This document shows positions 15,308 through 39,020 of a stretch of 46,443 nt of DNA, in pieces (position 1 is the first letter of the stretch; each line of letters begins with the position of its first letter). The notes under the pieces were generated by a model. The model searched no databases and was not told the DNA's origin. It saw only the letters and a list, made by a program, of their open reading frames with translations. Made by a program: the position numbers and the translations under genes. The stretch lies in the IMG/VR virus record IMGVR_UViG_3300005606_000002, positions 1 to 46,443 of that record. The stretch is one strand, 5' to 3'. The stretch is from a virus.

Positions 15308-15315
15308 TATTTATG
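15308..15315 (-). promoter_or_regulatory. T4-like late promoter (one mismatch)
   Basis: The minus strand reads CATAAATA, one mismatch from TATAAATA, 25 bases upstream of the 559-aa gene's ATG. It overlaps the stop of the upstream YHYH gene. The spacing agrees with the other late promoters in this window. Confidence 0.6.
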
Positions 15316-16678
15316 TCATATCAAAAGATTCTGACGTATTATCCAGAAAAACATCTTGTCTAGTAAAATCAGGATTGTTATTGTCCCGATCAAATGTAAC
15401 TGGAGTCATATCGTACTTTCCAATACCAGTATCAAATTTAAGGATAGTGGAATAATCTATAGACGTTCCAGAACCTGTTACAGTAAGGATCGCCAGATTG
15501 CTTATTAAGGGTGAGTTTTGTGCCTGAGTAGATGCACCAACTGGACCAGTCAATACACATCTATAACGATAACCAGTCATAAATGGTTGAGCATTTATTG
15601 TTAACGTTGCTGATGTATCACCAGTCAAATTAGACCAAGCAAATCCACCGTCTGTTGATACTTGCCACTGATATGCAATAGTATCATTTTGTGGTTGTAT
15701 CTCTGCCAACAAACTAAACTGTTGTGTGTTACCACTTTGAACAGTAGCATTTGTTGGTTGAAGTGTTATTACAATACTAGGGGGTTGAGAAGGAGTATCG
15801 CCACCATCATCAGTAGGTGGTGCAGTTTGTGTGAAACCATCATTAGCGGGTACTACCATTGCCTCTTTCGAGGTCAAACCCATCATAAAAGGAAATACTG
15901 GATTTCCAGAATTATCTTCAGTAAGAAAGTATGCAAAAGTACCACTAGGATACTCAGGTGTTACACAATATCTACCATTATGTGTGTCTAACTTACCTGT
16001 TCCACCAGTGTATTCATAATCTTCCATAAACACACCTGCGGGGTATGTTGTATCATATACAGGTCTTCCAGGTGCTTCTTGGACTCTTACTGTCCATCCA
16101 GAAGACATTCTGATTACAGGTGTAGTATTATCATTAGCATTGGTATATCCGTAAGGACCATACACAGGATAACCATCAAAACTAAAACCTATTATTTTAG
16201 AATGACCATCAGGGTGTCTAATATTATCACCATTATATTGAGATGAACCATAGTAATCATTGTATCCTGCCATCACTTGATTGGCATTCCAACAATCTAT
16301 GAAGTCGCTGTCATTATAACTGTACTGACCACTTGACTGAGGATAACCACCACAACTATCTTCTCCATAATTAACAGCAGAACCAATACCCGCTGCCACG
16401 TAGGAAAAACCCGACGGGGGAGACCCATCAGTTCCTGCACTAGGATTAAAGAAGACGACACCGTTTGCAGCAATACCAATAGCACCCAAACCGACAACCC
16501 CAGAATCAGACGTGTTTGATCCACCTCTGTAAACAAAGTTGTGGTTGAAAGAATATGATGTAATTGTGTTTGAATTGTTAGCATTAGGAAAAGTTCCTGA
16601 GTTCACTGGAGTTGGTAAACCATCACCAGTTACTGTTAGGACATTATTGCTACTATTATAGGATCCATTTGCTGCCAT
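15311..16678 (-). CDS. YHYH-domain structural protein with Ig-like domain (455 aa)
   Basis: Residues about 80-275 form a YHYH domain: characteristic blocks are DGHSKIIGFSFDGYPVYGPY, GVFMEDYEYTGGTGKLDTHN, GRYCVTPEYPSGTFAYF and NPVFPFMMG. Residues about 295-395 form an Ig-like domain with the pattern VQSGNTQQFSLLA...YQWQVSTDGG followed by a Y-R-C strand. A tail (TILKFDTGIGKYDMTPVTFD) follows. The function of YHYH domains is unknown to me; they occur in several copies in marine phage structural proteins. The gene starts 8 bases after the stop of the giant gene, which carries its own YHYH domain and an Ig-like C-terminus, so the two proteins look related by module duplication. Likely a fibre or baseplate decoration protein. 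Confidence 0.85.
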   Translation of the reverse strand: MAANGSYNSSNNVLTVTGDGLPTPVNSGTFPNANNSNTITSYSFNHNFVYRGGSNTSDSGVVGLGAIGIAANGVVFFNPSAGTDGSPPSGFSYVAAGIGSAVNYGEDSCGGYPQSSGQYSYNDSDFIDCWNANQVMAGYNDYYGSSQYNGDNIRHPDGHSKIIGFSFDGYPVYGPYGYTNANDNTTPVIRMSSGWTVRVQEAPGRPVYDTTYPAGVFMEDYEYTGGTGKLDTHNGRYCVTPEYPSGTFAYFLTEDNSGNPVFPFMMGLTSKEAMVVPANDGFTQTAPPTDDGGDTPSQPPSIVITLQPTNATVQSGNTQQFSLLAEIQPQNDTIAYQWQVSTDGGFAWSNLTGDTSATLTINAQPFMTGYRYRCVLTGPVGASTQAQNSPLISNLAILTVTGSGTSIDYSTILKFDTGIGKYDMTPVTFDRDNNNPDFTRQDVFLDNTSESFDMT

Positions 16679-16686
16679 AGTAGTAT

Positions 16687-19600
16687 TTAGTCGTCGTCGA
16701 AGATTTGTGTAGGTGTGAAGTTGTCAACCGTTGTTGCACCGATGTTGACGGTAAGAACAGCAGCAGTTGATAGAACAGGGATTGCACCGTTAGATGTGAT
16801 ACCAACACGATATTCATCATTTGTATCTGCCTGTGTAGTTCCAGGAGTTTCGTATGTAGCACTGGTTGCTCCACTGATATTATTCCAACTATTTGTTCCA
16901 TAATCTTTCTTCTGCCACTGATATGAAAGAGTTCCGTTATTAACGTTAACTGCTGAACCCATATACTGATGATTGCCACATACGTAATTAAGAGTAGCAG
17001 GAGCATCTGATGCAACTGTGATGCTGACACTACGTGTTGTAGCAGCAGCAAATCCTGCTGCGTATGTTGCATAATCTGCAACTTGATTTCCATTAAGACG
17101 ATATACAACACCAGTCTCATATCTTTCAGTTCCACCGTATGCGTCTGCATTCTCACTGAAGTAAATTGCGTGAGTAGTATTAGATACGTCATTTTGATTG
17201 AACTGATAAGTTGCTCCACGAACAAATGTAAGTGTTGGTGCTTCAGTATTTTGTGTAAACTGACCTCCTGTGAGGTAGTATCCTTTACCAGATCCTTGAT
17301 TGTAGTAAGGATGATTTACAGATTTACTATCAACTAAGACTGAGTAAGCAACAACATTAGATATTGTTACTGTTGCTGCAACTTGGAAGATAGCAGTTTG
17401 ACCTTGGTTGACAGTAATATTTCTAGGTGCTTCAGTGATTGTTATAAAGTTCTCAATAACTCCTGTTCCACCAGTCTCAGGTATAAAGTTAGGATCGTAA
17501 ATATCAATACCACCATTTAATGCAGGTCCTGTAGGTCCTAAGAAATCATCTGCAACAGTTGTGTTTGCAGTAATTGCAGGTAATGAATAACCTTGACCTG
17601 CGTTCTTAACATCAATCCTTGCAACACCGACAAGTGCTTTAATACGTCCACCAAATCCTGTTGAAGATATAACATCAACTTGTGGTCTTGTACTATAACC
17701 ATCACCAGAGTTTGTTAATATCGCATTAGTAATACGTCCCTTCTCAATCTCAGCAAGTGCAGAAGCATTACGTCCTTTAACTGCTCCACCGTACTCAAAT
17801 GTAATTAGAGAGTTAGATGATTCAATAAGAGCAACTGTTCTTGTTTCTTCTTCACCATCAATTCTAAGTTCATCACCTGCTTCAATAGGTGGTACAACTG
17901 TTGCTGCGATAACGTCAACATCAGAACCAACATAAGAGAATGCAACAAAGGTTGAACCTGCACGAGGAACTTCAGAGAAGATAATTCTAGAACCAACAAT
18001 TTCAAAACCAATTCCAGGTTCCTGTATAACACCATTTAACTGACATATAATATTATTCTCAGGTAAGATTGTATTTGACTGTACACCATCAGTTAGAGTC
18101 AATGAGTAGAATACTCCATTTAACTTCAAGTTGAATGAGTTACGTAATGAGTCAAAGTCGAATGATATATCATCTAATTGTCTTAACTTACCTTTATATA
18201 CACCGTGGAATGTTGATCCTATAGCAGGTGCTTCAGTAAATTGTATATTATCTGAGAATGCAGTAAATGCGTAATCAGCACCAGGTGGTTGTAAGATACC
18301 ATTTACAAAGATCATCATATGTCCTGCGGGATCTGGGAAGTATTGTGTACCATTTCCTTGAGTTAGTTTGAATGCAGTTTGTACACCATCAAATCCTCTA
18401 AAGAATCTACGTACTCTACCTCTCAATGATCTAGCAGATGAACAAGCACCTCTGAAACCATTATCTCCAATAATTTGTGAGTTCTTCTGGAATGTTCCTT
18501 GTGTTGCTTCTAGATGTAAAACAGCACGAGTACCAAACTGTGTAATCTTAGCAATCTTACCATATGCAGTTGTATCTGTTATTGTGACTGCACCAATAGT
18601 TGTATATACAGATGGGAATAGAGTTCCGACTGGTACTTTTGCTAATTGATATTGTGTATTACTTGCAATATCGCTTATTGTCACACCTTCTGGAGTTCCA
18701 GTTTCATTTGCAACATATACGTAATTAGTGTTTGTATCAATCTCAGTAACAGTCACTGTCCAACCAATACTAATACCACCAGATTGAATTTGTAACACGT
18801 CACCAACGTTAAATGTATCACTAACTCCAGTATCAGTAATTAATGCAGTATATGTAAGTCTTGTAATTTGCCTACCGTGTACATATTCACCGAAGTTAGG
18901 TAATGTAACGAACGATTCAATCTCAATAATTTGATCAGTAACAGATCCATAGATAACGTCTTGGGGTTTAAACTCTCCAGTTACTGTGGAGATGTCGTAA
19001 GTGATTCTACCACTCTGATTATCAATTAGTGCACCGTTATTGTTTCTAACAATTAGAGCAGTTGCTTTAGATCCAGTATCTGTAGAGAAGAACTTATCAG
19101 TTGCAATAAATTCACCCTGACGGAAGTTAACAAGAATCCTATCGTGCTCTCCAACATATGTACAGGTACCACCAGATGTAATACCTTCAATAATGTCACC
19201 TGCTGTAAATGTTCCATTATAATCAATTAGTTTAATATATGTCTCGTTATCGGTAGCAAGAACTTTACCAGTATTTGATGTAGCACCTTGAACAACAACC
19301 ATCTCACCATTCTGAATCTTAATACCAGTTCCACCACCTTGTGCAGAGAATGTATTGCAGGTCATATACTTTGCCTGATACATAACGTCTGCTAAATTAT
19401 CTTCCATACGAACTATCTGAGCAGTAGCACCAGAGGTTCCACCGTAGATAACATCAGCAAGGTTGAAACCTGCTTTGATTGGTGTTGGTACATCACGTGT
19501 TCCAAAAGTTGTAGGTACACGATCTACACCTGGATCTACACTAACAACAAGTGTATGTAATTGTGATGGAGTTCCTGGAGTTAGAACTATTGGTTCTCCA

Positions 19601-22600
19601 TCAATGTATTCTGTAAGAACTATTTGAGTAGGTGTTGAATTAGGATGGATATAGTAAACTGATCCGTCTAGTTCTGCAATATTAGATCCAAGAACAATAT
19701 ACTCAACTCTGTCATATGGTTCAAAGTTATTAGCAACGTTTATAACTCCATTAGAAACAGCAACACCTGCATCGAACTGTGTTCTTAAGTATGTTGTTGG
19801 GAATTCTGAGTATTGTAATGCAACTATTATTAAATGGAATAGTTGATATAACTTATGGCAAGCAGTTGCAGTAGGACGTAATTCTCTATCAGGATTAGTT
19901 CCATCAATAGTGTAAAGAGGTTGGTTAGCAAATGTGCCAGGTGCGGGAGCAGTTCCTTTCAATATATGATCCATCAAGTCTTTAATCATCCTTGCGTGAT
20001 AAAGAAGACGAGTTCTGAATAAGTTTGGATATGCTACGAAATTGCCATCAGCGTCAAACCAAGAATTGATGAGTTGCAGTGTTCTAGCATTACCATTTGT
20101 AATGAAATCATATACAATCGCTTTCTGTATTGGTTCAGCAAACGAAGCATCTCCTGCATAACCTGGATATTGACTTAATGTATTTTCATATGATTCTAAT
20201 CTAGTATATGTGTCATTGTACATTAACAATCTTGCAGATTGCTTATACATCTCTGTACCACTTCCAAGACCGTGAAGAAGTATTTTGAATAGTACGTGTG
20301 CAGCAGATGTAACATCGTAACAAGTTCCACCTTTATATACAGTGTTAGTAGTAACAGGTGCAGTTCTAGTTATAGTTGCAAGATGACTTCCATTACCCGC
20401 TGCTGCTGTGGTAATAGTATTAATAAGTATCTCCCAAAGGGTATTAATGGCAGAACTCTGTGTGGTGCAGTTTCCGTTACCTGCTGAGTCGTAAGTTATA
20501 GTTACGTCACGTCTAATAGCACGTTCACCTGTAAGTGGCCATTCTAGTGGTAGTGTTCTTGTTATACCAGTTAAGTATGCTGTAGGATTGCTTGTATTTG
20601 AACTATCAAAGAGATTAATAGGAATACCCATCAATGAAGCGATTGATGCTGCTTCGTTTACACAACGTGTTTGAGCACCACCTGTATATACAGATACTGC
20701 ATTTGCCTGAGCACTTACGAATGAGTGAGCGTAGTTACCTGCTGTTGTAGTTCCTACAAATACTGTAAATGTATTTGTGGTTGTAGCAGTAATCGGTAAG
20801 TTTGCATTTGCAGCAGGGTCTGTGATACGAGGGTAACTATGGTTTGTAGAATCACCATCCATAGTGCAAGTAAATACAATACTATTTGTTCTAATTCTAA
20901 TACTATCATTTGTTGTAAATGTGTGTCCATTAGATGTGATTCGTAAGTTACCTGATGTTGGGAAATATTCTACATTTGTAGGAGTTATAGTTGTATTACC
21001 AGAACTTTGATCAACGGTAATTGTTCCGTCATATACAGCATTACCTTCAGTTACACCATTTGTAGTAATAATTTCCTGTCTCATTACTTGAGTAGCAATA
21101 TCTCTTGCTTCTTGGAAGATATATTTAACTTCTGCTGCTTGGTTGCTGATATGTTGTATAGCATTACCAACTGTGATGTAGAACTCACTTGAATACCACA
21201 TACGGTTGTTACCACCGTGTTTTAAGTTAAAGACTAATGCTTCAAGTAAATCTACAACGTCATCAACACAAGACTGATAATCATAACCACCAGAGAATGC
21301 CAATCCTGGGTATTGTGACATACCACGACCAACAGCGGTTGTAGCAATAAATCTTATATTATTCTCAATCTCATTAGCAGCATCATAGTAACCATTAGTT
21401 GTAGCATTTTCATAATAATCATCTCTTGGTGCTGCTTGCCCTAAACCACTTGTTGCTGCTTCATCCTCATAGGGAGTAAACCCTAAACGGTTTCTGATGG
21501 CGAGTATGCACATATCACGTGCTAACTTAAAGGCATAAGTTGTTTCATCAGATTGAGCAGTTACGTGACTTAATTGCAAATCAGTATTCAAATATAATGC
21601 AGCAGCATCATATGATTCACTGTTACCACCAAATCTTAAATCGTGTGCTATAGATTCAATAATATCAACTATATCATCTTCACAATTAACTTTACCACCT
21701 GGAACTCTGAAACCTTTAGATTGTGCAAATGATGTCTTAGTTAAAATATCAACTGCCTCACCCGCAATAGTTTTAGCATTCTGTACTAAAAGATTAGCAG
21801 CATCAAGATCTCTATCAGATCCTGTATATGCTTTAGGATCTATTGTAATAGTCTCATCACGATATACAGGTTCATCTGTGTATAACATCTGATAGTAATC
21901 AGAGAAATCAAGAGCAACTTGAGCAGGGTTCTCATTTCTACCAATCAATAAACCTTGTATTGCTTTTTGTGCTAACTTCTTAGCATATTCAATCGCATCA
22001 ATCATCGCAAGCAATTCATCTTCAATATAATTGATGTTAGTCTCATTATCGAGATAACTATCAATCATTGCTTGAGTTTCAAAGTTACCACCTGTAACTA
22101 AGTCACCTGCAATGGCAGGAAGTATATGATCTCTAATATCTCTTACACATTTTGCTCTATTAGGTATTGTTAGTTTATTTACTGTTGAGAAACCAACTTG
22201 TACTTGATATTTGTTCTCAATGTAGAATACTGATTCATCAGCGATTGCTTTTCTATTAAAGTAAATTAAATCAGCACCATCTCTAAATCTATGACCTGTA
22301 GGTCCGATAACATCTAGTAGATCATCTACAAGAGTCATAATATCATCTTGTATTGTTTGAGATGCAGGAGATGAGAAGTAATTAGGAACACGAACCTTAG
22401 TTGAGTATGTTCCTTCTAAATTTGTCTCATCTAATGTAATTACATCAATACAAAGTTTTGCAACTTCTCTCCAAGTATAGATTGATTGTAATTGCTCACC
22501 ACCAATATGTTGTAAGGCACCAGATCCTTCAATGTAAGCACGACCAACAATAGTTGTTTGGAAGTTACCACCTGATATAAGGTCATCAATAATAGCAGGT

Positions 22601-25600
22601 ATAATATATGATTTTGTATCTCGTAAACAAACATTTGATCCATAACCACTCATACCACCATCACCAGGGATTACGAAATCAGGGTATCTATATTTAAGAC
22701 GACCAACTGCTTCTTCAGCGATGTAATCAATATTTTTCTTTATTATATCAGCACATAATCTATATTCTTCACGACTTAGATCAACACCCTCAGTAGTAAG
22801 TTCAGAACGCCATAGTTCAACTTCATCAGCGTTAGCAGTAGATATTATGTGACTAACGTATGTTGCATATACTGCACTCTGTTCCATAGGGAATGGTGCT
22901 TCGCCAAGAAGTGCGAATGATACGTTTGTACTATCGTTGAAGATAATAGGGGGAGTAAAACTACTATTGTACTGGGAGATTCCTTTGTAGATTACAAGAT
23001 TATCAATCCAACCATTGAAAGGATTACCATTATTCCATCCTGCACCAACAGTGATCTTACTATTTGCGTTGTAATTATTTGTATCGGTATATGTGCCAAC
23101 CTCTGAACCATTTACATATAATTTAGTAACACTTGTAGAACGAGATACTGCAATATGATACCAAGTATTGATTGTAGTAATAGCAGAACTAGCAGTAATT
23201 ACATCACTTGCTCCAATGGATAAACGAAGTGACTGACCAGACATTAATATACCTAGTTTAGCATCAGATGAAGATTCTCTAAGGTCAATAAGTCTCTGTA
23301 CACCAGTAACTGAAGCAGGACGTATCCATAACTCCATTGTATAGTCACCATTAGCAGCATCTGCTCCATCACCAAATACCACAGCGTTACTTGATGGGAA
23401 AGAAGTATATGAACCAGATCCAGTAAATCTTAGTGAACCAGTATCAGTTTTAAATGTTAATTTATCTTGAGATACGTTTGCATATGTAAGTTTAGAGTTG
23501 GTTATTAATTCACCTGCTTGTAATACGCCACTGATTTGTTTTGAGAAGATCCACTTGTTACCTGCATTAGATCCTATAACATCATATGTTGCACCAGATG
23601 TAATTGCTTTTATAGTATCACCAAATCCAAATTGTCCACCACTTGATTTGTCTTGGTAGGCGTGTTTTGCACAACGTAAAGTCTCACCATCTACAAAAGC
23701 GTAAGGAGGAAGAACACGAGGTACATTAGTAATTGACCATTGATATGTTGCAGGATCTCCACCTGTAGGATCTTCTAGAGTATCAGTAATGATTCTCATA
23801 AAGGATGTTATAGCGTTTGCCTGATTAACACAACTATTAGTGTATCCCGCATATGCAGCAGAAGGTGCAGTCTCAGTTACTGCTGCTTCAAATGCTGCTA
23901 CTGTTCCTGGAGATGCAGTTGATCCAAGATTAGTAATCAAAATATTCATTAATGTAGTAATTGCTGATGCAACTGCCTGACAAGTTGGATTTGCAGGATC
24001 AGCAGTTATTGTTAGATCTTTTACTTGATTCCAGTTATGAGATCCTGCTTTAGTCCAAGTATTGTTTCTCATTACCTCAATGGCAATATCTCTTGCCTTA
24101 GTAAAAGCATTTACAATAGTATCTCTATCACCAGATGTTACACCATACTGTAGAGTTTTCTTAGTTGCTTTATAAACAAAGTTATTACCACCGTGTGCTA
24201 AGTTATAAACCATCGCTTCAAGAACATCAACAATATCAGATAAACAATGAACATCTCCACCTGATACGTTATATCCTGGATTTTGTGTTTTAGCATAATG
24301 TAATGCTTCATATGCAATAAACCATTTATTAGCAAGAATTAGATCTCTTGCGTCACCGTGACTATTGCTTATAACAGCAAACTCTGCGGTAATAGTAGGA
24401 TCTCTGTATTGTGGTAAATTTGTTGTATTAGTATTAATTACTTCATTACGAATACACTGAATTGCTAAATCACGTGCTTTATTAAAGGCATAAATTGTTT
24501 GTGCAACTTCACCATCAACGTGATATATTGCATTACCTTGTACATATGTGTTAGCAGCATCCCAGATTTCTGAGTTGCCATCAACTTCTAATTGATATGC
24601 AACGATATTTAAAATATCTACAATATCATCTTCACAATCTCTATCTCCACCTAATGATGGTACTGTAAATGATGGATAGAATGCTTTCATCAATCCAACT
24701 GCTTCTTCAGCAATGAATCTATCATTCTTTCTTATTAAAACAGCAGCATCAAATGAACGTTGATCGTCTACACCTACTAATGAAGCATTATCATAGTAGA
24801 TTTGTTTATTACGTATTGAGTCACCTGCTGTAAATTGTGATCCTGACAGATAATTATACCTAATTTCTTGGTTTCTTACCTCTTCAAAGTCTAAGAAGTC
24901 TTGGTTATTAGCAGTTCCTGCCTCATATAATTCTTCTGGATTGATAACTGTCTCAGAAATATTGTCTAAGATAGTATTTGGATATGTAATTGAAGGAACA
25001 CGTTGGAAAATAAGACCAAAGAATGATGATGGAGGTGATAAATCAACAGTATCAATGATTTGTTGTGATACATCGTCTGTATATGGTGAAATTACAGTAA
25101 CTCTTGCAGCAATTTTAGATGCAGCAGAGTAAATTGTATCATTAAATCTGATATTAAATTCACCAGTTTCAAATGCAGCAGTACCAGATGTACGAGAAAC
25201 AACTAAATTAGCATCTACAACACCATCTCTAAGGTTATTTTCTTCAATAATTGCAAAATCACCTTGTAAATTTGTAATTCTTTCACCTTGCTCATATATT
25301 GTCTTACTTGTTATACCATTTACAGCACTTAATACACCATCAAATCCAGTAGATGATGCTAAAACATTGTCATTTATTTGGAAACTACCATTCTGATCAA
25401 TAATATCGATATAATCTACACCAGTATCAATAACAGTTGCAGTTCCTTCATTCTGTAAAGATCTTACAGTCTTACCTGTTGTTGGGAAAATACCAGATGT
25501 TGTACTAAATGTAAATCTTGTGATATTAATTTGAGAGAATGTAAGATTTCTAAACTTAATTCTTGAAGGTGCTTTAGGTGGTTCAGAAAATACGACAGAT

Positions 25601-28600
25601 GGACCAGATGTTGTGAATGCAGTTCCAGGAGATTGAGCAACACCATTAATAAGAATTAATAATTGATCATCAGTTGCAGTTACAGAGTCACCTTCTACTG
25701 TCAATGCAAATTGTGTCTTAATTCCATTGAAATCATTTTCAATATTATCTAATTTTTTAACAATAGAAGTTAAGATTTCTTCAGAGTTAGTAAGTCTTCT
25801 TTGTCTGAATAATACTTCAGTGTTATTAAACTCTGTATATATTGGTTGTGAGTTAGCAAAAGAAGTGATTTGATTAATATTAGTAGCACTAAAGATATTA
25901 ACTTCTTTAACAAGATCGGATACAACTTTTCTTCCAGATATATCTTTACCTGCTGCAAGTGCCAGTTCACCAAACATATTAAATCCAACTGGATGGTTAG
26001 TTTCTAGAATACTCTTTCTCCAGTCATTAATAGGAGTTTGTGATTTAATCACATAAGAGAAATTCTGATAGAAGTAACTATCTTGAATTTTTTGAACAAT
26101 CTCAGATGGTTTACCAACATCATCAATAAACTGACCAGTGGTAGTTGTCATTGAGTCAATATTCAATGTACCACGAGCAATCGATAAGTTATCAATTAAA
26201 CCAGATGCACGAGATACCTGTGCAGTAACACGCTCTCCAGTTGTCCAAGTTCCAGTGTAATTTTCTAACTTAAGGATTCTAGGTCCAATCTGCCAACCTT
26301 CATTTTCTGATACATATCCTATTGCAGTTGCTGTTTCTAAAGATAAACCTTGATATACGAGTTCTCCTCTTAAGAAACGTGATGTCTCAACTATGGCAGT
26401 TGCTAAACCACCAAATACCTCGGTAAGAAGAATCTGACGACCATCACCTTGAGTTAAGAATGTAATAAAGTTACCAGACTCAGCATCAACCTGTGTTAGT
26501 GCTATTCTAAGTTGATCTGCCTCAAGTGAATTTGCTTCACCTGCAATAGCATAGTAAGTAGTTGTAGAACTCAAACTAACCAAACCTGCTGAACTTGGTT
26601 TTGGTAGAATACCAACTGTAGATCCTAAATCTTCTGCTCTAAGTTGAATAGCAGCACCAGTTGTAATACCGTGTGGGAAGTTAAACTGTAGATAACCCAA
26701 GTCAAGGTTTACAACATAGTTAAATTCTGATTTAAGTGTAACTGTTGGTTCAGAAGAATATCCAGATCCAGGATTCTTAATTAAAACTTCAGAAAGTCTA
26801 TTATTTTTGATAATTGCTTCTGCTTCAGCACCTGTTCCACCACCACCTTCAATGACAACTCTAGGAACAGATGTGTAACCAGAACCAGGATTGGTAATCT
26901 TAATTTCAGATAAAAGAGCAGTATTGAATAGTTGTAAGTTAACTGGGAATGTAATCTCAGGTCTTAAGGTGTAATCGTGAGAATAACCAAAACCAAATTC
27001 GTTATTTTTAAGTTTCTTAATCTTACCGATACTTGTACCTTGTAAGAATACAGATGCACCAGATCCTTCATTAGGAATTACAACTTGTAAATCACCACCA
27101 GATCCTTGTAATAAAGATCCTAATATTCCTGGAATTTTATCAATATCAATAGATGCAGTAGTATATCCTTTACCTGGAGATGTTAATTCAACAGCAGTAA
27201 TAACACCTGTCAACTCACCATCATCTGAAACTGTAATATTACATAGACCACCTTCACCATCTCCGTCAATAACAACATTATAGTAAATACCATTAATGTA
27301 TTCTGTACCACCAGATAAGATACGAATCTTCTCAATTTCTCTGTTAGATGCTATATCAGTAACAATAGGTAACTTCTGATAGAATCCACCTGGATTTACC
27401 AGTTTGATATTTGAAATAGGACCGATTGCTTTAGTGGAAGTTGTGCTATAAGATGCTCTTGAAACTCCTGTTTCAGTTACTCCTAAAGGAGCATTTGTTT
27501 TTTCTGGTTCTACAAGAAGTGGGAATGTAAATTCGGTATCACTTACTATATTATTAATTCTAAATGTACCTTTGTAAGGTGTTTGTATAACGTCAATAAA
27601 TGAGACAGGACCAACAGGTGAATTAGATGGAAGAGTTCTTGATGGATCAAAGTAATATGAAATATTAGTAACATCCTCATCAACAATAAACTTAACAAGT
27701 GGTTTAGGTGATGTTTGGTCAGTTAAACCTGGGATACCTTCTCTAACAATGTTTACAAAAGGATATTCCAATTTATATTGGTTATCCTTAGAGAATGACA
27801 TATAATATCCAAAGTTAGATGGATCGTCAAGGTCAAATATGTATTGATGTCCACGAACAAATAATAATTCTGGATGTTTAGCGTAAATATTAACGTTTGA
27901 TACTGATGAACTTGCAAATGTAGGATCTTGTACAGCAGTTGATCTTAATCTATATGTAAATGTTCTAGTATCTAATACCTCTTCTATAAAGAATGATCCA
28001 CCATATTCTGTAGTAGTAAATCCTTCTACAAATATAATTTCGTTTGCACTAAAATTGTGCTTACTATTAGATACACAGAATACTAAATCTGTAAATGTTA
28101 GTGCACCAGATGGTATTACATCTTTAGCAAGATTAGATGTAAGATGGAATTTCTTAACACCAACTAAACCTGCTATTGTTATAATCTTACCAGTTGCATC
28201 AAATGTTGCAGATAAACCAACTGCCTGTGCATCAAGAGTATCACCCTTAATAAAGTTTGAATCTGAATATACTGCTTCAATTTTTATAATGTAATCTTCA
28301 GCAACAAATGGTTGCCAAGTAGCAAATTGTCCTAGATTGCCAGTAGAGAATGGAGTATTTGCTAAATCAACATCAAAACTACCTGCGTCACGAGTATATA
28401 CCCAGTTAATATTACCATCAGTTACAGTACCAACTGTATGAACTGGAGCAGTAACACCAGAAACTGCTGTAGTTCCTGATGTGTAAATCTTTCCATCATT
28501 ATAAACCTCATCACCAACTGTATAAGGATTATTTGTTACCCACTGAGGTATTGTTGTCTCAACTAAAAATGTTTGTGCTATTGTGTTTCTATCATTTGCA

Positions 28601-31600
28601 CTAGATTTAAGTAATTTTGTAGTATCAAATGTACCGATAATATTACCAATATCAACGCTATCAGTTCCAACATTAACGATAGTACCATATGCACTAACTA
28701 CATCTTGACCACCAATTACAGAATACTGTTGTAGTAAAGATCCTTTTGTAAAAGATGCTGTTTGATTAAATGATACTGTCTTAACAGTGTCTATTGACTG
28801 ATATACTGCATCACGAATATAGAATTTGGGAATAACAGTTGTACTTAATAGAAGTTTTCTACCAAGAGGAGTTGGAATAGTAGCAGTTCTACTCTCAAAA
28901 ATTTGATCTGTAGATACAAATGAGTAAGTTCCTTCAACATTATTTGATACAACATCAGCATAATCAAGTATTTGTAGACCCGCAGGACCTAATGTCCAAT
29001 CCCCAGAAGTAATCACTTGGGTATTAAACGTAAAGTCGTTCACAGCGGCTGCGACTGTTATCTGCATACCTGCTTCAACAGTGCTTAGTGTATATGTTCC
29101 AGTTTTAGTTTGTTCCCTGTCTAACTTGAAGCAGAATCCTGCTACCTTTTTATTAGAACCAACTGCCTGAGCAGGAGTAAATGTATCTGTATATTTTGCA
29201 AGACCTGATACAGAAATATTATCTACCCAACCACCAATAGAAGTAGCAACAGCAGGAGATGATTTACCAAATAATAGTATAGATTTAAGTTGTGTATCTA
29301 TGGTTGTACTTGTTACATCAATTTGTTCAACACCGTTAATGAATACTTTATAAACGTAAGTACCAACACCAGGTGTTGACTTAACAAGAGCAACGTGTAT
29401 AAATGCTTCGTTATTAAATGTTGACCAGTTAGTTGTGGATGTAGATAGGTAAGTATTAGAACCTAACTTTAAACGAACTTTACCAAAATCAGCACTTGTA
29501 GAATCACCTTCTAATTCTACAACTGCATTATCACCTGTAGTAGGAGTAACATCAAAAATATTTGGTGTAGAACTTTGAGCATTATATTGTGCTTGCCCAA
29601 TAGCAATCCACGCTTCAACTGTATAATTTGTTGCTACATCAGCACCCCAATCCAATGACAGTCTATTTGCAGCAGCACTTATATTTGCTGACTGTGCACC
29701 ATACTTCCATTTAGAAGTATCTAATGTAGGATCTACAGACCATCCTGCTGTTAAATTATTGTCATATGTATCATCTCCAGTTATGGTTGATTCAAAGTTT
29801 AATATTGCCAATTCATTTGATTCAATCTTATCACCTGCAATTAAAGTATCGCCAGAATTGTCGTTTGTAATTGTAGTTGGATGGAAACCAATACCACTAT
29901 CTTGTTTTAATGATGCAGCACTTAGTATATTACTTGTATTCCAAGAAACTTTAAATATAATCGCTCTATGATCATTAAAGGCATATTTAACGTATGCACC
30001 AACATCAACATTACCAAATATATCAAATTGTACACCAGTTGCTTTAATATCTTCAAATGTTCCAGTAGGAGCAAGCATTTTAACTACTGAAGGTGTCTTA
30101 TAATCAGTAGGTGCAAACTTCATATACAAAATACCCACATTCTTGGTATTTGATATTGAATATGCAGTAGCAGTTACATATCTAGAACCATAATCATCAA
30201 TAGTAATCTTAGGATTGCTGAATCTATATGAAGTATTGCCAAACTGTCTACTCCACTGAACTTCAATAGTAGCAGTATCATAAAAAGTTTCACCAATTAT
30301 TATTTCACCAGTTCCCGCAGGATCATTAACACCAACAAATATAGAAGTATTATTACTTGTAAATTTAAGATCAGTCATTTGTTCTGACCCTGCTGCTGTA
30401 CAGATCTTACGTTTTTCTTTAATGGAACCGTCTGTATCTAACAGTGCAATCCACATATCATCTGGATTAGGTGAGTTAGTATCAGTTGTACCACCAATAT
30501 AGATCTGACCATCAGAGTCAATAGTAAGAGATGAAATATAATCTCTTCTAGTAGAACCAGATATACCTGCTATTTCACGTTGCCATACAGGAACAGCAGT
30601 AGGATTATTGAATCCATCAAAACCAGAGGTGTATTTGGCAACAACTAAATCTGGATTGTATGTAAGGTTTACATTATTGGGTATTGTTTCACCAACAACG
30701 TAGATAGAATGTGGAGATGTATTTTCTAAGTAAATTCTGTTGAACACACAACGTTTGTCACCCGCAGCAGGTTGTAGTGGTGCCATTGTTCTTGTCCACA
30801 ATAATCTACCATCACTATTGAACTTAGCAATTAAACCTGCCGAATCACCATCAAGATCATCTGCTTCACCAACAACATAGAATGTTCTATCATCAGCAAT
30901 AGCAATATCTCTAATTTTTACAATTTTTTCAACACCACTTGTATTTTCATTTAATAATGTAAGAGCATAATTTGCTTTTTTATATCTTTGTGGATGAGAA
31001 ACCCTAACTTCTGGAGGTGTTGATGCTGAATACTCAGATCCAGAGTTTATAATATTAACATTATTGACTGCACCAGACTCTTCTCTAACAAGTTCTAACT
31101 TAAAATCTTGACCAGTTCCACTAACAATTTCATAATTAGGTGGTATATCTTCATTGTAACCTAGACCTTGTTGACTTATAGTTACTGTCTCAACACCCGA
31201 TACAACTTTTACTCTATATGTTTTATTAGTTTGATCAATAATAGGAATACTATCAACAATAATTTCATCACCAACTCTTAAATCGTGCTCATCAGCGGTT
31301 GTAATTTTTCCCAATGGAGCATCATTTACCATAGATGATGTATATTGAGTAATATCAATACCTTTTACAGAATCAACTTTAGCAGATGCACCATATCCGC
31401 CAGTATCAGTGTTATCAAAGAATAACTTATCGTTAACTTTATATGATATACCTGGGTTTTCAACTACAAATCCACTAATCTTAGCATCTTCAAATTTAGT
31501 AGTAGTATCAATTTCAATATCAACCTGTGATCTTGTAGAAACTCTAGGGTAGTAATCAAATAATTGTAGTACAGGTTCTTCTGAGATATAATTTAACTCA

Positions 31601-34600
31601 TCTTGCTCTAACTGTGATATGACACCATCACGGTTTGTATCTTCTATTTCAAAGATAAACTCTTCTCCTAGTTCTGTTACAAGAGTATCTGTGTCTTGGT
31701 TAGGTGTACGATCAATATCAATATCAACATCTTCATATGGATCACGGAATCTAACAACATCAAGAGGAATATTTGTTTGCACAGCATCTTGACTGTAGTT
31801 CCAAGTATCAGGTTGTGAGTATAGTTGTGGACCACATACATATGGAAATACAGGTAAACCTGCTTCTGATGCGTCTATAGAAACAAAGTAAGCGTAAGTA
31901 CCTTCAGGATATTCAGGTGTTTTACAAAAACGTCCATTGTATTGGTCTAAATCACCTGCTTGGAAAACATACTCATAGTCTTCTATGTAAGTTCCTGCGG
32001 GTTTGTCTGATAGTAAAGGTCCATCAACACGAACTGGATTTGGGTTAGTGGCAGAATCAAATAATAATATTGGTTTGATTCTGTAAGATGATACACATCT
32101 CTTAATACCAGATGATTGATCAGCAGCATCAATATAACCATATGGTCCGTATATTGGGTTTCCATCAAATGCCCAACCAATAATAGGAGAATGTCTTAAT
32201 CCAGATGATAGTTCTCTAAGAAGACCTGTTGAAGGATCTTTAAATACGTTATCACCAAGAACATAACGTAATTGTTTGGGATCTGATAGGTGAGCATATT
32301 CACCACCATATTGTGTATTATATCCTGCAAAAACATAACCACGAGCAGGGTCTACTAATCCTGATAGTTCAGTTTCTAAGTTTTGTGTCCACTCAAATAC
32401 GTTTGCAGTAAATGATGCACCTTGACCTATAGATTCGCAACGAATAGTTGTAAGACCTGTTGTATATCCTATACCTCTGTTTTCTACAGATATACTTAAT
32501 ACTTTACCTTTATCTTCACCAAATGTTCCAATAGTTGCTTTTGCAACAGCACCATATCCATCTCCATTAATAATAATTTTAGGTGGAGAAGTATATCCAT
32601 TACCAGATGCAATAATAGCAATAGAAACTATACGACCATTAATTATAATTGGTTGTGCAACTGCACCTTCACCAGAATTTAATTTAATATTTGGAGAAGA
32701 TGTATAACTTGATCCTGCTGCATCTACGCTAATAGATTGAATAGGACCTCTTACCTCGGCAGTAGCAGTAGCACCTGTTCCATTGCCTCCTGAGATGCTT
32801 ACAGTGGGTGCTGAGGTGTATCCTTGACCAGGTGTCTCAACAAGTATTTTACTTACAACTCCGTTTGTAATAACAGCAGTCGCAGTAGCACCAAATCCAC
32901 CTCCACCAACAATAGAAACTAAAGGAGATGCGGTATATCCAGAACCACCTGCTGTAACATCAACACTGAAGAGTGATCCATCTACAATAACACTAGCAGC
33001 AGCACCTGATCCACCACCACCAGATATTTCAATAAGTGGTTTAGATGCAGCGTCATATCCTGTACCCGAATTTACAATATCAACACTTGTTATTCCACCA
33101 AACTTAGTCTTAGTTTGAGACTTATAAGACCAAACAGAAACACCATTTACCCAAGCACCAATAGGACCAAATGATAAATCATCACGTCGTGATACAGTCT
33201 CTACAATTCTAGGAAATCTACTTAGTTTTCTTTGGTTTCCTGGGAGTAAAGCAGACCCAATGAACGGACCAACTTGATAGTTTGGAATACCTGTTGTAGC
33301 AACATAAGAGTAATTTGCGTTGAAGAACGTATTTTGTACATTGGTTGTAAACTGATTAATTGAGTTGTTAATTGCTTCTTCTGTTGATTTACCTTTATTA
33401 AGGTCAACAGACATCAAGATATTACCTTGAGGTGCATTAGGTGCAGGGGCAGCAATCTGATATGAGAAAACAGTGTTACTTATACGAGATGTTACAGCAA
33501 ATGTACCGTTAAAGATTGTTGGGTTTGCACCGTATATTGTTACAGAGTCACCAACAAGAAGACCGTGGTTATTTGTAGTATATACAGTTGCAGTTTGATT
33601 GTTAAGTCCACCTGGTTCAATATTTGTTACAGAGATTAATTTCTTAACATTATACAACCAAGATGTAATTCTTTGATCTGTAGATGAAGATCCAAGAGAT
33701 GCAACATTTAATTTATCACTAGGAAGATAATATGAACCAGTATCGGTAAGAACTGTTCCTGTTGCTTCAGCAATACCAAGAACACGTAATTTTACTTCAG
33801 TATCTTGTCCTCTATTGATATAACAGAAAATATCAGAGTATATTGTTGTACCTGCATCCCAATCTTCTACAACACCGTTTTTAGAACGTGTACACTCAAT
33901 AAACTGGTTTAATGATTTTTCTTTGTATTGTATTCTTTCGTTATCACCCATAATGATGATACCGTTCCTTTCTGGCCACCCAATAGTAGAGTCAACAGTA
34001 ATAATAGACTCGGTTGCTGTTAAAGGTTCTACAAGTGTTGTTTTATAAGGTATTGTAAATTTTCCTTCTAAAGTTTCTTCAGATATTGACAATTCATAGA
34101 TTGTTCCAACACCAGTATTGATAGCAATAACGTTTTCAACCAAACAAACCGCATTTCCAACACTTGTATCTACATCATCTGCATATTGGAATAATTGAGA
34201 GTCTAATATATCAACAGGACTTCCACTTATCAATTCTACACGAATAATTGTATCAACAGACCAAGTTGCAGCAGATGGTTTAATTAATTCATCTTTTGGA
34301 TATGAAACATCAACATTTTCTGAGAATAAGACTTTAAATAAGTATTCTGTGGCAGTTTTTGTACCTTTAGACACATAGAAGTCTTTTATTGTCTTAATAA
34401 TCTGTGGAGCATTGATTTTAGTGTAATCAATATCTGCATCAGGTAAGAACTGATTTACAAAACGTTCATATAGTGTTCTAGAGAATAAGGAATCAAGATT
34501 CTCAATAGTGCTTCCAATTTCGTGAGATGATTGAATACTTTGTGCTTCATTTGTAAATACTTGATTTCCTCTAATATCATATGAGGAAACACCTGATACA

Positions 34601-36518: not shown

Positions 36519-38606
36519 TTAGAAGCAAGTGTCAAACTCAGGGTAATCAAATACCGTGGTTGGATAATCAATTATATTTATCGAGGTTCCGTCAAAGTTG
36601 ATTGGAGTAAAATCTAACGGATCAAAGTTTGGAACGCTAGTTCCATCAATGGTGTAATCTATAGTGATTACTTGTGGGTTGAAAATAGTTGGATCTACAC
36701 CAGTTCCTATATTTACATTACCACTATCTAGCAGAACTGTAACAGGAATACGTGATGTTCCATCAGGAGTGCTTGCTACGTTTATAGGACCTAGACAAAC
36801 TTCTCCAGTTTTATAATTAACAGTTCCAACACCAGACTTAAGAATAACTTCTTTTTCATCTAGTTTTGTAACCATTATTAATTCACCTCTACCATTATCT
36901 CTCACATTTACTGGTAAAAGAGCACTTGTATCATTTTCTACAAATGTACTAATACTTAATACTGAATTTGTTGTTAACTGTTGAGATGATACAGCAAGAT
37001 CTAATAACGCATCTGTGTAACCTGTAGAATAAAATGTTCCACTCTTTACAGCAGAAAATTTAGGACTACATACTGCCACACCATCACTAGAATTACCAGA
37101 ACCAATATCACCAGGATTTACAATAGCATTACCAAAATCTACACATTGAGTAAATGTAGAACCAAATGGGAATCCAGATACATTTAAACCAAGTGTCATT
37201 GTTGTCTGATTACCAACAATACTATTTTGAGATTGATCAATCATTGTTTGGAACGCAGATGTGTCAATCCTTCCATTGAATCTATTAGAAGATCCTTGTG
37301 TATTAAAGTCATCAATAGCACCAAGAACTCTAGATGCCAATTCATTATTTGATAAGTTTGTTGATGTACCGTCAAAGAACACATATGTCTTAGGACGTAT
37401 GTATAGAGTTGTAGGATCGATAATTACTGGTTCGATCGCTGCCATAGAATACTTCAATAAATCATTCTTAATACGTTTCTTGGTAGTAGCGTTTAACGCT
37501 GCACCAGATTTAGTTTTTACAGCAACAAATACTTTTCCATATACAGGTGGGTAGACTCTTTCTCCACCATAAGCGGTAACAGACTTTGCTTGAGGATAAA
37601 CCAGTTTAGTAACATACTCATAATCGGACTCCGTAACTGCTCTGTTTTGGGCACTGAATGCCCTTGGAGCGTTGTACTTGATAGATATAACATCTTCTCC
37701 TGCTTCACCGTCCTGAGAGGCATCTACGGTTGCTATAGAGATGTTTGCAGCAGGTACATTGCGACCAGTATTATCTGTTACTCTACCTATAAAAGTAAAC
37801 TTCTTACAACCATTTGCTTCTGGTCCATTAGTTCTAACATATTTAAGTCTTATAACCTCACCCGCTATTAACTCTCTACCTATAATACCATCACCAAATA
37901 TTACAGTATATCTAAGATCATCCGTTTCCTCTAAGAAATAACCACGAGTTGTACCATCTACATTTACAATATTTGTAATTTGGTTGTAAGTATCTATTTC
38001 TTCACTTTGAGCATTAGGTGAAATAGACACATAAAGTAAGTCTGTATCTACATTGTCAACAGGAATCTCATATTTTCTTTTTTTAACGTCAGTTACGTTG
38101 TACTCATACTCTAATAAATTACCTTGATATATTACTGTTTTATTAAATGTTGCAAGACCAGTCTGCTGATCTACCATAGAAGTGATTGGTTGTGGAACTG
38201 TGAATGTATATGCTTGACCATCAACAGCAGATACAAATACATCGCCCGCAGGAATAGTTACGGTAGATGGATATGTTGTTCCTGATCCAAGAAAACTTGT
38301 TTGCACTGCAAATGCAACACACGCTTTTGCTGCTTTTATTGATCTAGGTGTATAATTTAATTGTTTTGCTATCTTTACTACGTTGTCTCTTATTGTTGCC
38401 GACTCTAAAAATGCTTCATTCATCGCCATATTAGCGTTGAAAGCAGAATAATAAGTATTGTATGCTAATACGTCTAGAAGATATGACGCAGCAGATCCAT
38501 CAAAGTCGTAATCTGTAAATTCTGTTCTAGTTCTTAGATACGATTTGATGGATTCTTTTATCTCTCCAAAATCAAGAGATGTTAAATTTGATGGTATTGC
38601 GGGCAT
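36519..38606 (-). CDS. gp6: Baseplate wedge subunit gp6-like (695 aa)
   Basis: The N-terminal about 110 residues (LDFGEIKESIKSYLRTRTEF, then DYDFDGSAASYLLDVLAYNT and NMAMNEAFLESATIRDNVVK) match gp6 of T4-like phages, and the length is close to T4 gp6 (660 aa). The central part (YTVIFGDGIIGREL, NRAVTESDYEYVTKLVYPQA) has the features of the baseplate J family, to which gp6 belongs. In T4, gp6 dimers tie the wedges into the ring around the hub. The ATG lies directly after the gp25 TAG, with a GGAG ribosome binding site inside the end of gp25, so the two are co-translated. The giant gene follows 20 bases downstream. Confidence 0.93.
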   Translation of the reverse strand: MPAIPSNLTSLDFGEIKESIKSYLRTRTEFTDYDFDGSAASYLLDVLAYNTYYSAFNANMAMNEAFLESATIRDNVVKIAKQLNYTPRSIKAAKACVAFAVQTSFLGSGTTYPSTVTIPAGDVFVSAVDGQAYTFTVPQPITSMVDQQTGLATFNKTVIYQGNLLEYEYNVTDVKKRKYEIPVDNVDTDLLYVSISPNAQSEEIDTYNQITNIVNVDGTTRGYFLEETDDLRYTVIFGDGIIGRELIAGEVIRLKYVRTNGPEANGCKKFTFIGRVTDNTGRNVPAANISIATVDASQDGEAGEDVISIKYNAPRAFSAQNRAVTESDYEYVTKLVYPQAKSVTAYGGERVYPPVYGKVFVAVKTKSGAALNATTKKRIKNDLLKYSMAAIEPVIIDPTTLYIRPKTYVFFDGTSTNLSNNELASRVLGAIDDFNTQGSSNRFNGRIDTSAFQTMIDQSQNSIVGNQTTMTLGLNVSGFPFGSTFTQCVDFGNAIVNPGDIGSGNSSDGVAVCSPKFSAVKSGTFYSTGYTDALLDLAVSSQQLTTNSVLSISTFVENDTSALLPVNVRDNGRGELIMVTKLDEKEVILKSGVGTVNYKTGEVCLGPINVASTPDGTSRIPVTVLLDSGNVNIGTGVDPTIFNPQVITIDYTIDGTSVPNFDPLDFTPINFDGTSINIIDYPTTVFDYPEFDTCF

Positions 38607-39020
38607 CTATACTTGCTCCAGTAAGAAATCAACGGTTTGCACTAAAGTTTCACCAATAATCTTATAGTCAAGTTCAACACGGAGACTGTTATCATCTTCT
38701 GGATCTTGCTGTACTCTAACCGAACGAACATTTATTCTAGGTTCTAGTCTTGTGCAAACGTTGATGATTTCTTCTTTAATGTCTTGTGCAACAAAAACAT
38801 CATATGGTTCAAATAATAGTTCTCTTAAACGTGATCCAGTCTTAGGTTGAAATGGTCTTTCACCCATTCCAGTTAATACTAAATTACGGACTGACTGTTT
38901 AATAGCGTTTTCATTCTTAACAGTAGTAAAATCCTCAGTATTTGGATTTGGTTTCATCAAAATACTGAAGTCTTTAAATGCTCTACTAAGTTGTCGTTCT
39001 GCTCTGAACTTGTACGCCAT
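38607..39020 (-). CDS. gp25: Baseplate wedge subunit gp25-like (137 aa)
   Basis: This is a full-length GPW/gp25 family protein. Residues about 30-70 show the family core: NENAIKQSVRNLVLTGMGER, PFQPKTGSRLRELLFEP. It ends with a strand-rich part (NSLRVELDYKIIGETLVQTV). T4 gp25 is about 132 aa and sits at the centre of the wedge next to gp6 and gp53, starting sheath assembly. A GATAAATA late promoter lies 27 bases upstream of the ATG. In T4 gene 25 also precedes gene 6 closely; the same order is kept here. Confidence 0.93.
   Translation of the reverse strand: MAYKFRAERQLSRAFKDFSILMKPNPNTEDFTTVKNENAIKQSVRNLVLTGMGERPFQPKTGSRLRELLFEPYDVFVAQDIKEEIINVCTRLEPRINVRSVRVQQDPEDDNSLRVELDYKIIGETLVQTVDFLLEQV

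Follow-up and report, generated by a model that had tools for sequence, protein, structure and literature searches.

Phycobiliproteins (Pfam family PF00502: phycoerythrin, phycocyanin and allophycocyanin) are built from separate alpha and beta subunits of globin-like fold, whose helices A-B-E carry the bilin site Cys84 with an Asp three residues on (Cys84-x-[R]-Asp87) and then an A-G-G turn, and whose core is completed by helices F', G and H, with a further Cys (beta Cys153/155), in beta subunits only, before helix H. Small relatives such as smURFP and the biliproteins derived from allophycocyanin (PDB entries 6fzn, 6hrk and 7uqa), which rank among the nearest matches here by both sequence and fold, are stand-alone, engineered and not viral. 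The baseplate protein gp7 of phage T4, about 1000 amino acids (aa) long, belongs to a gene order, gp25-gp6-gp7, that is shared by its cyanophage orthologues, with baseplate families (PHROGs) around it. Phages may also carry genes of the bilin pathway, such as those for CpeT, PebS, PcyA and Ho1; in the available portions of four papers these are discussed as acting on host phycobiliproteins, with no phage-encoded acceptor named (PMC3037559, PMC10665884, PMC10452541, PMC2984593). We report here that a giant gp7-type protein, encoded on the 46,443-base IMG/VR virus record IMGVR_UViG_3300005606_000002 (analysed whole, and hereafter the window), contains a tandem array of domains that are almost certainly derived from phycobiliproteins. 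That they share this descent and also bind bilins is the reading we favour, with a probability of about 0.52.

An earlier note, made from the DNA sequence alone, had described six copies with a C-x2-D motif, each with a single Cys at the same place, inside a fibre-type protein. Alignment bears this out, and a family hidden Markov model (HMM) adds a seventh copy, in which Phe replaces Cys, so that one conserved Cys stands at a fixed place in six of the seven copies. The aligned copies share the pattern N...IA.EA....YP......C..D...I..A...DL..GGN...........Y, followed by a long last helix, and copies 3 and 4 do form the subgroup proposed for them, both having C-x-R-D and IIPAI/ILPAI...GGNF. Independent E-values (i-E) of the family HMM for the seven copies run from 1e-20 to 3e-40, a partly circular measure since the model was seeded with these copies. 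The protein, its array and the LamG domain, rightly placed by the note between copies 2 and 3, are as follows:

16687..36498, minus strand: giant baseplate protein (T4 gp7 position), 6603 aa, a single open reading frame (ORF) carrying the whole array
24442..24762, minus strand: copy 1, aa 3913-4019, Cys3955 (codon 24634-24636), C-E-D-D; alignment and family HMM
24061..24366, minus strand: copy 2, aa 4045-4146, Cys4085 (codon 24244-24246), C-L-S-D; alignment and family HMM
22984..23391, minus strand: LamG/concanavalin-like domain between copies 2 and 3 (PF13385, E 1.8e-21)
22429..22770, minus strand: copy 3, aa 4577-4690, Cys4624 (codon 22627-22629), C-L-R-D; under the PF00502 match, AlphaFold model
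21949..22293, minus strand: copy 4, aa 4736-4850, Cys4784 (codon 22147-22149), C-V-R-D; family HMM, model of the copy 3-4 pair
21487..21816, minus strand: copy 5, aa 4895-5004, Cys4939 (codon 21682-21684), C-E-D-D; family HMM, weak PF00502 match
21073..21396, minus strand: copy 6, aa 5035-5142, Cys5077 (codon 21268-21270), C-V-D-D; family HMM
19951..20253, minus strand: copy 7, degenerate, aa 5416-5516, Phe for Cys and Asp lost; family HMM

The note had assigned the repeat to no named family, a claim to be given up if a known Pfam domain matched significantly. Searched with window positions 19951-24750, Pfam returned PF00502 (Phycobilisome) at 29.5 bits (cut-off 22.2, E 8.4e-7), the centre of the match lying on copy 3, whereas copy 3 alone (17.8 bits) and the corresponding match in a six-frame translation of the window (17.5 bits) fall below the cut-off. 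Among 56 single copies from the window and named phages, PF00502 was matched at E <= 1 by 20, and every other Pfam family by at most one; across 18 cyanophage genomes, three pass the PF00502 cut-off and 11 match at E <= 0.001. NCBIfam gave CpeA, ApcB and ApcA, all below threshold, as the sole matches of the copy 3-4 piece, and no match for the other two pieces of the array. Profiles searched against PDB sequences found only phycobiliproteins or fluorescent proteins (smURFP, 'bacterial' and 'near-infrared fluorescent protein') among the matches listed, namely the best 60 of 69 for the profile of all seven window copies, 60 of 168 for that of the 56 copies, and 60 of 131 and 60 of 144 for longer units, with best E-values of 6.8e-5 for the window copies and 4.3e-7 for the 56. 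The 56-copy alignment joins the six Cys copies of the window to 50 of 64 named-phage copies, and it leans towards Cys-bearing copies, given that eight of the 14 left out have no Cys84. The PDB alignments shown place the repeat Cys on the Cys of the C-x-R-D bilin site (Cys84 by chain counting in the 56-copy search), its Asp on Asp87, and the glycines and turn before GGN on A-G-G. Comparison of HMM with HMM gave E 1.3e-9 (one comparison) over helices A-B-E against 60 cyanobacterial CpcA/CpcB sequences plus typed CpcB, and E 7.2e-6 against CpcB-type sequences alone. Run in the opposite direction, a cyanobacterial CpcA/CpcB HMM was weak against viral ORFs, with nine matches at i-E <= 0.01, all within the repeat domains (9.1% of the residues), and none at that level in the window (best i-E 23), so that phage-side profiles are required to see the relationship.

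Predicted structures agree. The AlphaFold model of copy 3 (predicted local distance difference test, pLDDT, 82.7 with 79 aligned rows) was superposed by VIA-align on phycobiliproteins in all 50 rows listed, one of them titled 'bacterial fluorescent protein', with Z from 11.8 to 12.7 and a best superposition (Z 12.7) of 3.1 Å over 117 residues; all 50 Foldseek rows listed were phycobiliproteins or smURFP/fluorescent relatives, the best template modelling (TM) score being 0.72 and the best E 0.03. For the copy 3-4 pair (pLDDT 80.5, 26 rows), the 50 VIA-align rows listed were again all of phycobiliprotein fold, with Z from 15.2 to 16.5 and a best match (Z 16.5, root-mean-square deviation 2.5 Å over 145 residues) to a cryptophyte phycoerythrin chain, and 48 of the 50 Foldseek rows were phycobiliprotein-like, the other two being long, low-probability matches to polyprenyl synthases. 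The rows of both model alignments were chosen, most copies without Cys being absent from them, and in one alignment the row of copy 2 was shortened at its N-terminus. The domain is accordingly modelled as a globin-like fold with helices A-B-E-F'-G, helix H being supplied by the linker that follows; relative to phycobiliproteins the F/G region is shortened, and the N-terminal X-Y helices, which serve alpha-beta pairing, are not seen in the aligned ranges, which start at about residue 22-34 of the subunits, the modelled sequence having begun at copy 3. A chance or convergent likeness between helical proteins, with no common descent, might be invoked on the grounds that single copies score below the Pfam cut-off, that helical folds match easily, and that VIA-align itself urges caution over Z under about 13 for helical bundles. 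Against it, phycobiliproteins come up independently in searches by sequence and by structure (in the pair Foldseek search, as 48 of the 50 rows), the HMM-HMM E-value is 1.3e-9 and the host range fits, and we consider coincidence practically out of the question.

The pair model also redefines the repeat. Its residues 1-163 superpose up to the last residue of the subunits (172 or 177), through the linker, which makes the linker helix after copy 3 the counterpart of helix H. A whole unit runs to about 160 aa, made up of five helices and the linker helix H, where the note had given roughly 100 residues. In 17 of the 26 rows of the pair alignment this helix is headed by a Cys ('GITNDPGG-C-ANVKSAIDTL'). 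The column in question, pair residue 144, lies 19 residues before residue 163, itself opposite 172 in several phycocyanin beta chains or 177 in several phycoerythrin chains. Provided that helix H has no gap, the column would correspond to phycocyanin beta residue 153 and phycoerythrin beta residue 158, a register set by the end residues only. Residue 158 of phycoerythrin beta is, we take it, a bilin site. Helices F-H are not reliably aligned in the global HMM-HMM alignment, and the equivalence of helix H and Cys153 therefore rests on the pair model and this register. The shorter Cys helices that the note had seen in the linkers number five, at aa 4173, 4223, 5279, 5344 and 5393; a helix-H model matches those at 4173 and 5344 well and those at 4223 and 5279 marginally, and does not match the one at 5393. 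Together with the helix H of copy 3 they are:

23923..23982, minus strand: Cys-headed helix H after copy 2, aa 4173-4192, Cys4173, candidate beta-Cys153-type site (helix-H HMM i-E 4.4e-8)
23776..23832, minus strand: second Cys-headed helix, Cys4223, marginal (helix-H HMM i-E 0.24)
22300..22362, minus strand: helix H of copy 3, aa 4713-4733, Ser at the Cys column (pair model; helix-H HMM i-E 3.4e-8)
20611..20664, minus strand: Cys-headed helix, Cys5279, marginal (helix-H HMM i-E 0.08)
20407..20469, minus strand: Cys-headed helix H-like element, Cys5344 (helix-H HMM i-E 7.5e-5)
20263..20322, minus strand: Cys-headed helix, Cys5393, by eye, no match to the helix-H model

Across the phages a helix H is detectable in 44 of 119 copies (seven of 126 with fewer than 30 downstream residues having been dropped), and when it is sought with a model lacking the Cys column, Cys stands at its head in 39 of the 44, against a background Cys frequency of 0.7%, a figure that is suggestive only, because most rows used to train the helix model have the Cys. 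The invariant second Cys of one long-unit alignment was discounted as evidence, its rows having been picked by eye for Cys-headed helices. Some units of about 43 aa match only the A-B helix part, as if half-domains had been multiplied (locus L057, 12523-12903; L060, 11263-11391; L179, 6746-7000).

Conservation of the first site was followed over 738 domain matches, overlapping loci included, that the HMM found in 178 sequences; copies with fewer than 80 matched residues, with X, or more than 75% identical to another were dropped before counting, which left 126 non-redundant at 75%. Asn12 is present in all 122 copies with a letter at that site. Cys84 occurs in 95 of the 126, always with Asp87 alongside (95/95), whereas Asp87 is kept in only 10 of the 31 copies without Cys84, and 50 of the 95 have the form C-x-R-D that the displayed PDB alignments also have. 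Six of the seven window copies have both residues, and every site-covering copy examined reads C-x-[RD]-D in S-PM2, S-H9-2, P-HM1, P-HM2 and Syn1 (gp7 copies in the case of P-HM1 and P-HM2). As judged from sequence, then, most copies retain the Cys84/Asp87 bilin signature and many have a Cys at the head of helix H. The note had suggested that the array could be a helical stalk and that its evenly spaced Cys could make disulfides or metal sites. Such a stalk would suit the fixed position of the Cys, one per copy in six of the seven, but the models show a compact, globin-like phycobiliprotein domain, and the Cys, lying on the bilin site, travels with the Asp three residues on as it does in phycobiliproteins; bilin attachment is therefore favoured over metal or disulfides, and the stalk appears very improbable. 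C-x2-D by itself is, to our knowledge, no known metal-site pattern.

The protein that carries the array is a structural one, in keeping with the fibre or baseplate type that the note had suggested. It lies in a T4-type baseplate operon, with gp25-like and gp6-like genes upstream and baseplate/tail genes downstream (PHROGs; Gp6 domains), and 'virion structural protein' phrog_701 is matched across most of its 6603 aa:

36519..38606, minus strand: gp6-like baseplate wedge gene (phrog_219; PF21379, Gp6-like)
38607..39020, minus strand: gp25-like baseplate wedge gene (phrog_261; named from the P-HM1 order gp25-gp6-gp7)

Relatives at this position carry the annotation gp7 in P-HM1 and P-HM2 and 'similar to gp7' in P-SSM3 and S-RIM2, and are elsewhere labelled 'baseplate wedge initiator' or structural protein. 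The giant protein thus has both the gp25-gp6-gp7 operon place of T4 gp7 and orthology to annotated gp7, from which it follows that it is a cyanophage gp7, greatly enlarged and holding LamG, YHYH and phycobiliprotein domains; the domain profile matches neither T4 nor the Pelagibacter phage HTVC008M. Presence in virions is suggested by orthologue group: T4-GC969 is among the 41 proteins of purified S-SM1 particles in the accessible part of PMC3037559, and the domain-bearing gene of S-SSM5 is labelled T4-GC969. An intermediate baseplate wedge protein is listed in particles of S-CREM2, a phage outside the set searched for the domain, in the accessible part of PMC10665884.

Copies 3-4 alone, used as a tblastn query, found relatives in 320 phage records at E <= 1e-5, and the repeat-only queries together gave 320, 286 and 349 records, all cyanophages by name save one 'Marine virus' each. 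None of these records was named Pseudomonas, Acidovorax, Erythrobacter or Variovorax, as were five, two, one and one, respectively, of those matched by a query that included LamG. Domain-bearing genomes have from 1 to 13 profile matches, partial ones included, and comprise the Prochlorococcus phages P-HM1, P-HM2 and P-TIM40. The profile found no match in T4, P-SSP7, HTVC008M (Kyanoviridae by its record), P-SSM2, S-CBWM1, S-SM2 or S-SSM7. A single copy occurs in S-SKS1, in a tail fibre; the record does not place this phage in Kyanoviridae. Scanning with gp23, meant to give an unbiased genome set, yielded contigs of 2 to 81 kb and was dropped.

In marine T4-like isolates the domain is accompanied by a gene of a bilin-lyase family. 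It is present in 20 of 24 marine T4-like genomes (18 named isolates, P-HM2 and Syn1), and CpeT (PF06206) was found in all 20, in two of them only at a relaxed threshold. At the threshold used throughout (E <= 0.001) CpeT is detected in 16 of the 18 named isolates and in P-HM2 and Syn1; E <= 5 was allowed only for S-SSM4, ACG-2014d and six IMG/VR records, and the divergent CpeT frames of S-SSM4 and ACG-2014d pass the cut-off only with pieces summed and the E-value relaxed. The four domain-less genomes P-SSM2, S-SM2, S-SSM7 and HTVC008M gave no CpeT candidate (0/4), even at first look, and the comparison of 18/20 with 0/4 has a Fisher p of 0.0014, uncorrected for kinship. T4, P-SSP7 and S-CBWM1 have neither domain nor CpeT. 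In four genomes (S-PM2, S-H9-2, ACG-2014j and Syn1) cpeT lies about 0.3-1.7 kb upstream of a giant tail-fibre gene with several domain copies.

Several details of these loci may be recorded here. In S-PM2 (locus L178, 8208-12230), S-H9-2 (L179, 6746-11413) and Syn1 (L350, 4219-10677) a second giant tail-fibre protein has phycobiliprotein-like copies besides the gp7-type protein, and its gene is near cpeT and a 2-oxoglutarate (2OG)-Fe(II) oxygenase gene. Sixteen tRNA genes of S-PM2 are annotated inside the tail-fibre reading frame S-PM2p218 (L178, 10557-15384) and may be misplaced or overlapping annotations. The GenBank record of Syn1 annotates cpeT (L350, 2974-3513) and is followed here, whereas Table 3 of PMC3037559 (Sullivan), in the part available, shows none for Syn1. 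One window relative, the record behind L013, has two neighbouring CpeT-like frames of 147 and 162 aa at 90543-91368.

The domains might instead mimic phycobiliproteins so as to engage host lyases, linkers or phycobilisomes, or to titrate CpeT, and have no purpose in the free virion. Their restriction to phages of bilin-making cyanobacteria would be compatible with such a decoy or docking role, as would the claim, in the accessible text of PMC2984593, that S-PM2 raises host phycoerythrin, an effect attributed there to cpeT. The domains are, however, inside structural proteins at the gp7 position, with orthologue group T4-GC969 in purified S-SM1 particles (PMC3037559, available part), and Prochlorococcus is described as lacking phycobilisomes (PMC2984593, available part), whereas the domain is present in its phages P-HM1, P-HM2 and P-TIM40. 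We regard this role as improbable.

For a bilin-bound virion we propose that a phycobiliprotein gene was captured and multiplied inside structural genes. It would probably have been of beta type, because the best rows of the pair model with a named chain belong to beta subunits, and because a Cys precedes helix H in many copies. Newly made gp7, in an infected cell full of bilins and lyases, would take up bilins covalently, host lyases or spontaneous attachment loading the Cys84-type sites and the phage CpeT the Cys153-type (helix-H) sites where these are present, as a natural substrate of a T-type lyase. Such lyases serve Cys-beta153/155, and CpeT belongs to them, with the member CpcT acting there, according to the available parts of PMC2327270 and PMC10452541. 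The virion baseplate would thereby carry bilins, the pigmented domains stiffening or decorating its outer part and perhaps tuning its behaviour to light. Domains of such size can hold the pigment: 6fzn, titled as a biliverdin complex, and 6hrk, titled as a fluorescent biliprotein from an allophycocyanin subunit, are phycobiliprotein domains of only about 132-147 residues. We give bilins bound in virions roughly an even chance.

The strongest competitor, somewhat less probable though a serious one, is that a captured piece of phycobiliprotein fold was multiplied as a rigid, bilin-free spacer or assembly module, Cys and Asp having been kept for packing or through recent ancestry. Consistent with this, the domain stands among structural modules of other kinds (LamG, YHYH), the number of its matches ranges from 1 to 13 in the genomes that have it, and Cys-less copies persist as intact domains (copy 7 of the window, P-SSM3, 31 of the 126). 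It sits less easily with the strict linkage of Cys84 and Asp87 across highly diverged copies (95/95), with the second Cys retained at the Cys153 position in many copies, and with the co-occurrence of a bilin-lyase family that adjoins the domain in four genomes.

A number of observations tell against bilin binding or qualify the descent. At the first site, Cys84 is missing from 31 of the 126 non-redundant copies and from the seventh copy of the window, from all three copies of P-SSM3, a phage with both CpeT and a bilin reductase, and from two of the three copies examined of S-MbCM6 (1/3 with Cys84; four matched). At the second, nine of the 26 pair rows have no Cys at the Cys153 position, among them window copy 3 and its seven closest rows. 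The co-occurrence with CpeT is uncorrected for kinship, and the domain-less genomes could represent few lineages; S-SKS1 has one domain copy and no CpeT was found in it; and of six window relatives from IMG/VR, 75-187 kb long and of unstated completeness, only one shows CpeT, a record of 171,756 bases showing none, where a missing match in a fragment does not prove absence. Bilin reductases, present in 4 of 18 domain-bearing phages, are a weak link, and pebS occurs in P-SSM2 and S-SSM7, where the domain was not found (Table 3 of PMC3037559, available part). As to descent, single copies stay below the Pfam cut-off, significant sequence homology is confined mainly to helices A-B-E, the remaining domain and the other pocket walls being predicted fold only, none of the Foldseek E-values for the copy 3 and pair models is <= 0.001, and the loop before the last helix is of low confidence in the copy 3 model.

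A further step would have the gp7 and tail-fibre domains, loaded by CpeT or host lyases, act through their bilins as a light sensor or energy sink that renders attachment light-dependent. This light-sensing role is speculative and, in our estimate, unlikely. Were it true, it would account for what phage CpeT acts on as well as for the light-dependent adsorption that is reported for cyanomyoviruses such as P-HM2, which has the domain, but not for P-SSP7, where no copy was found. In the available part of PMC7112961, model fits indicate poor dark adsorption of P-HM2, and a constant rate is not rejected for P-SSP7; light-dependent adsorption is stated for several cyanomyoviruses in that of PMC2984593, citing a thesis, and host photosynthesis is given as an alternative cause in that of PMC9229316.

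The family itself is already known, as phycobiliproteins; the surprise is to meet it in the baseplate protein of a virus, still with its bilin site and accompanied by a lyase gene, and in tandem domains within one giant chain and not in separate alpha and beta subunits. We know of no earlier phycobiliprotein-type domain in a virion. A literature search, with most subscription papers and all preprints outside its coverage, found no description of phycobiliprotein domains in phage structural proteins, and automatic PF00502 labels on such proteins may already be in databases. Many domain-bearing phages carry CpeT and some a bilin reductase; the purpose of phage pcyA and pebS is called a mystery and that of cpeT is left unresolved in the available part of PMC3037559. 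A phycobiliprotein-type acceptor in the phage's own baseplate protein, present or absent together with cpeT in the marine T4-like isolates tested, makes the purpose of phage bilin genes directly testable and is a physical candidate for the light-dependent adsorption of cyanomyoviruses. With most domains keeping the pigment-holding Cys of host light-harvesting proteins, the virus particle itself may carry a light-absorbing pigment.

Two other parts of the giant protein and its surroundings drew attention. Near the C-terminus, at window positions 16690-17250 on the minus strand, stands the stretch 'THAIYFS...NYVCGNHQYMG' (Cys6507, codon 16978-16980), whose His and Cys-x2-His-x3-Met spacing tentatively resembles that of a type-1 copper site of cupredoxin/plastocyanin kind; Pfam gave no match for it, and a PDB sequence search only a weak match to an immunoglobulin (Ig)-like domain. 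YHYH domains (PF14240) were found on the minus strand at 31873-32313, inside the giant protein, and at 15311-16678, in the next downstream gene, with E-values of 1.9e-31 and 3.9e-32, respectively.

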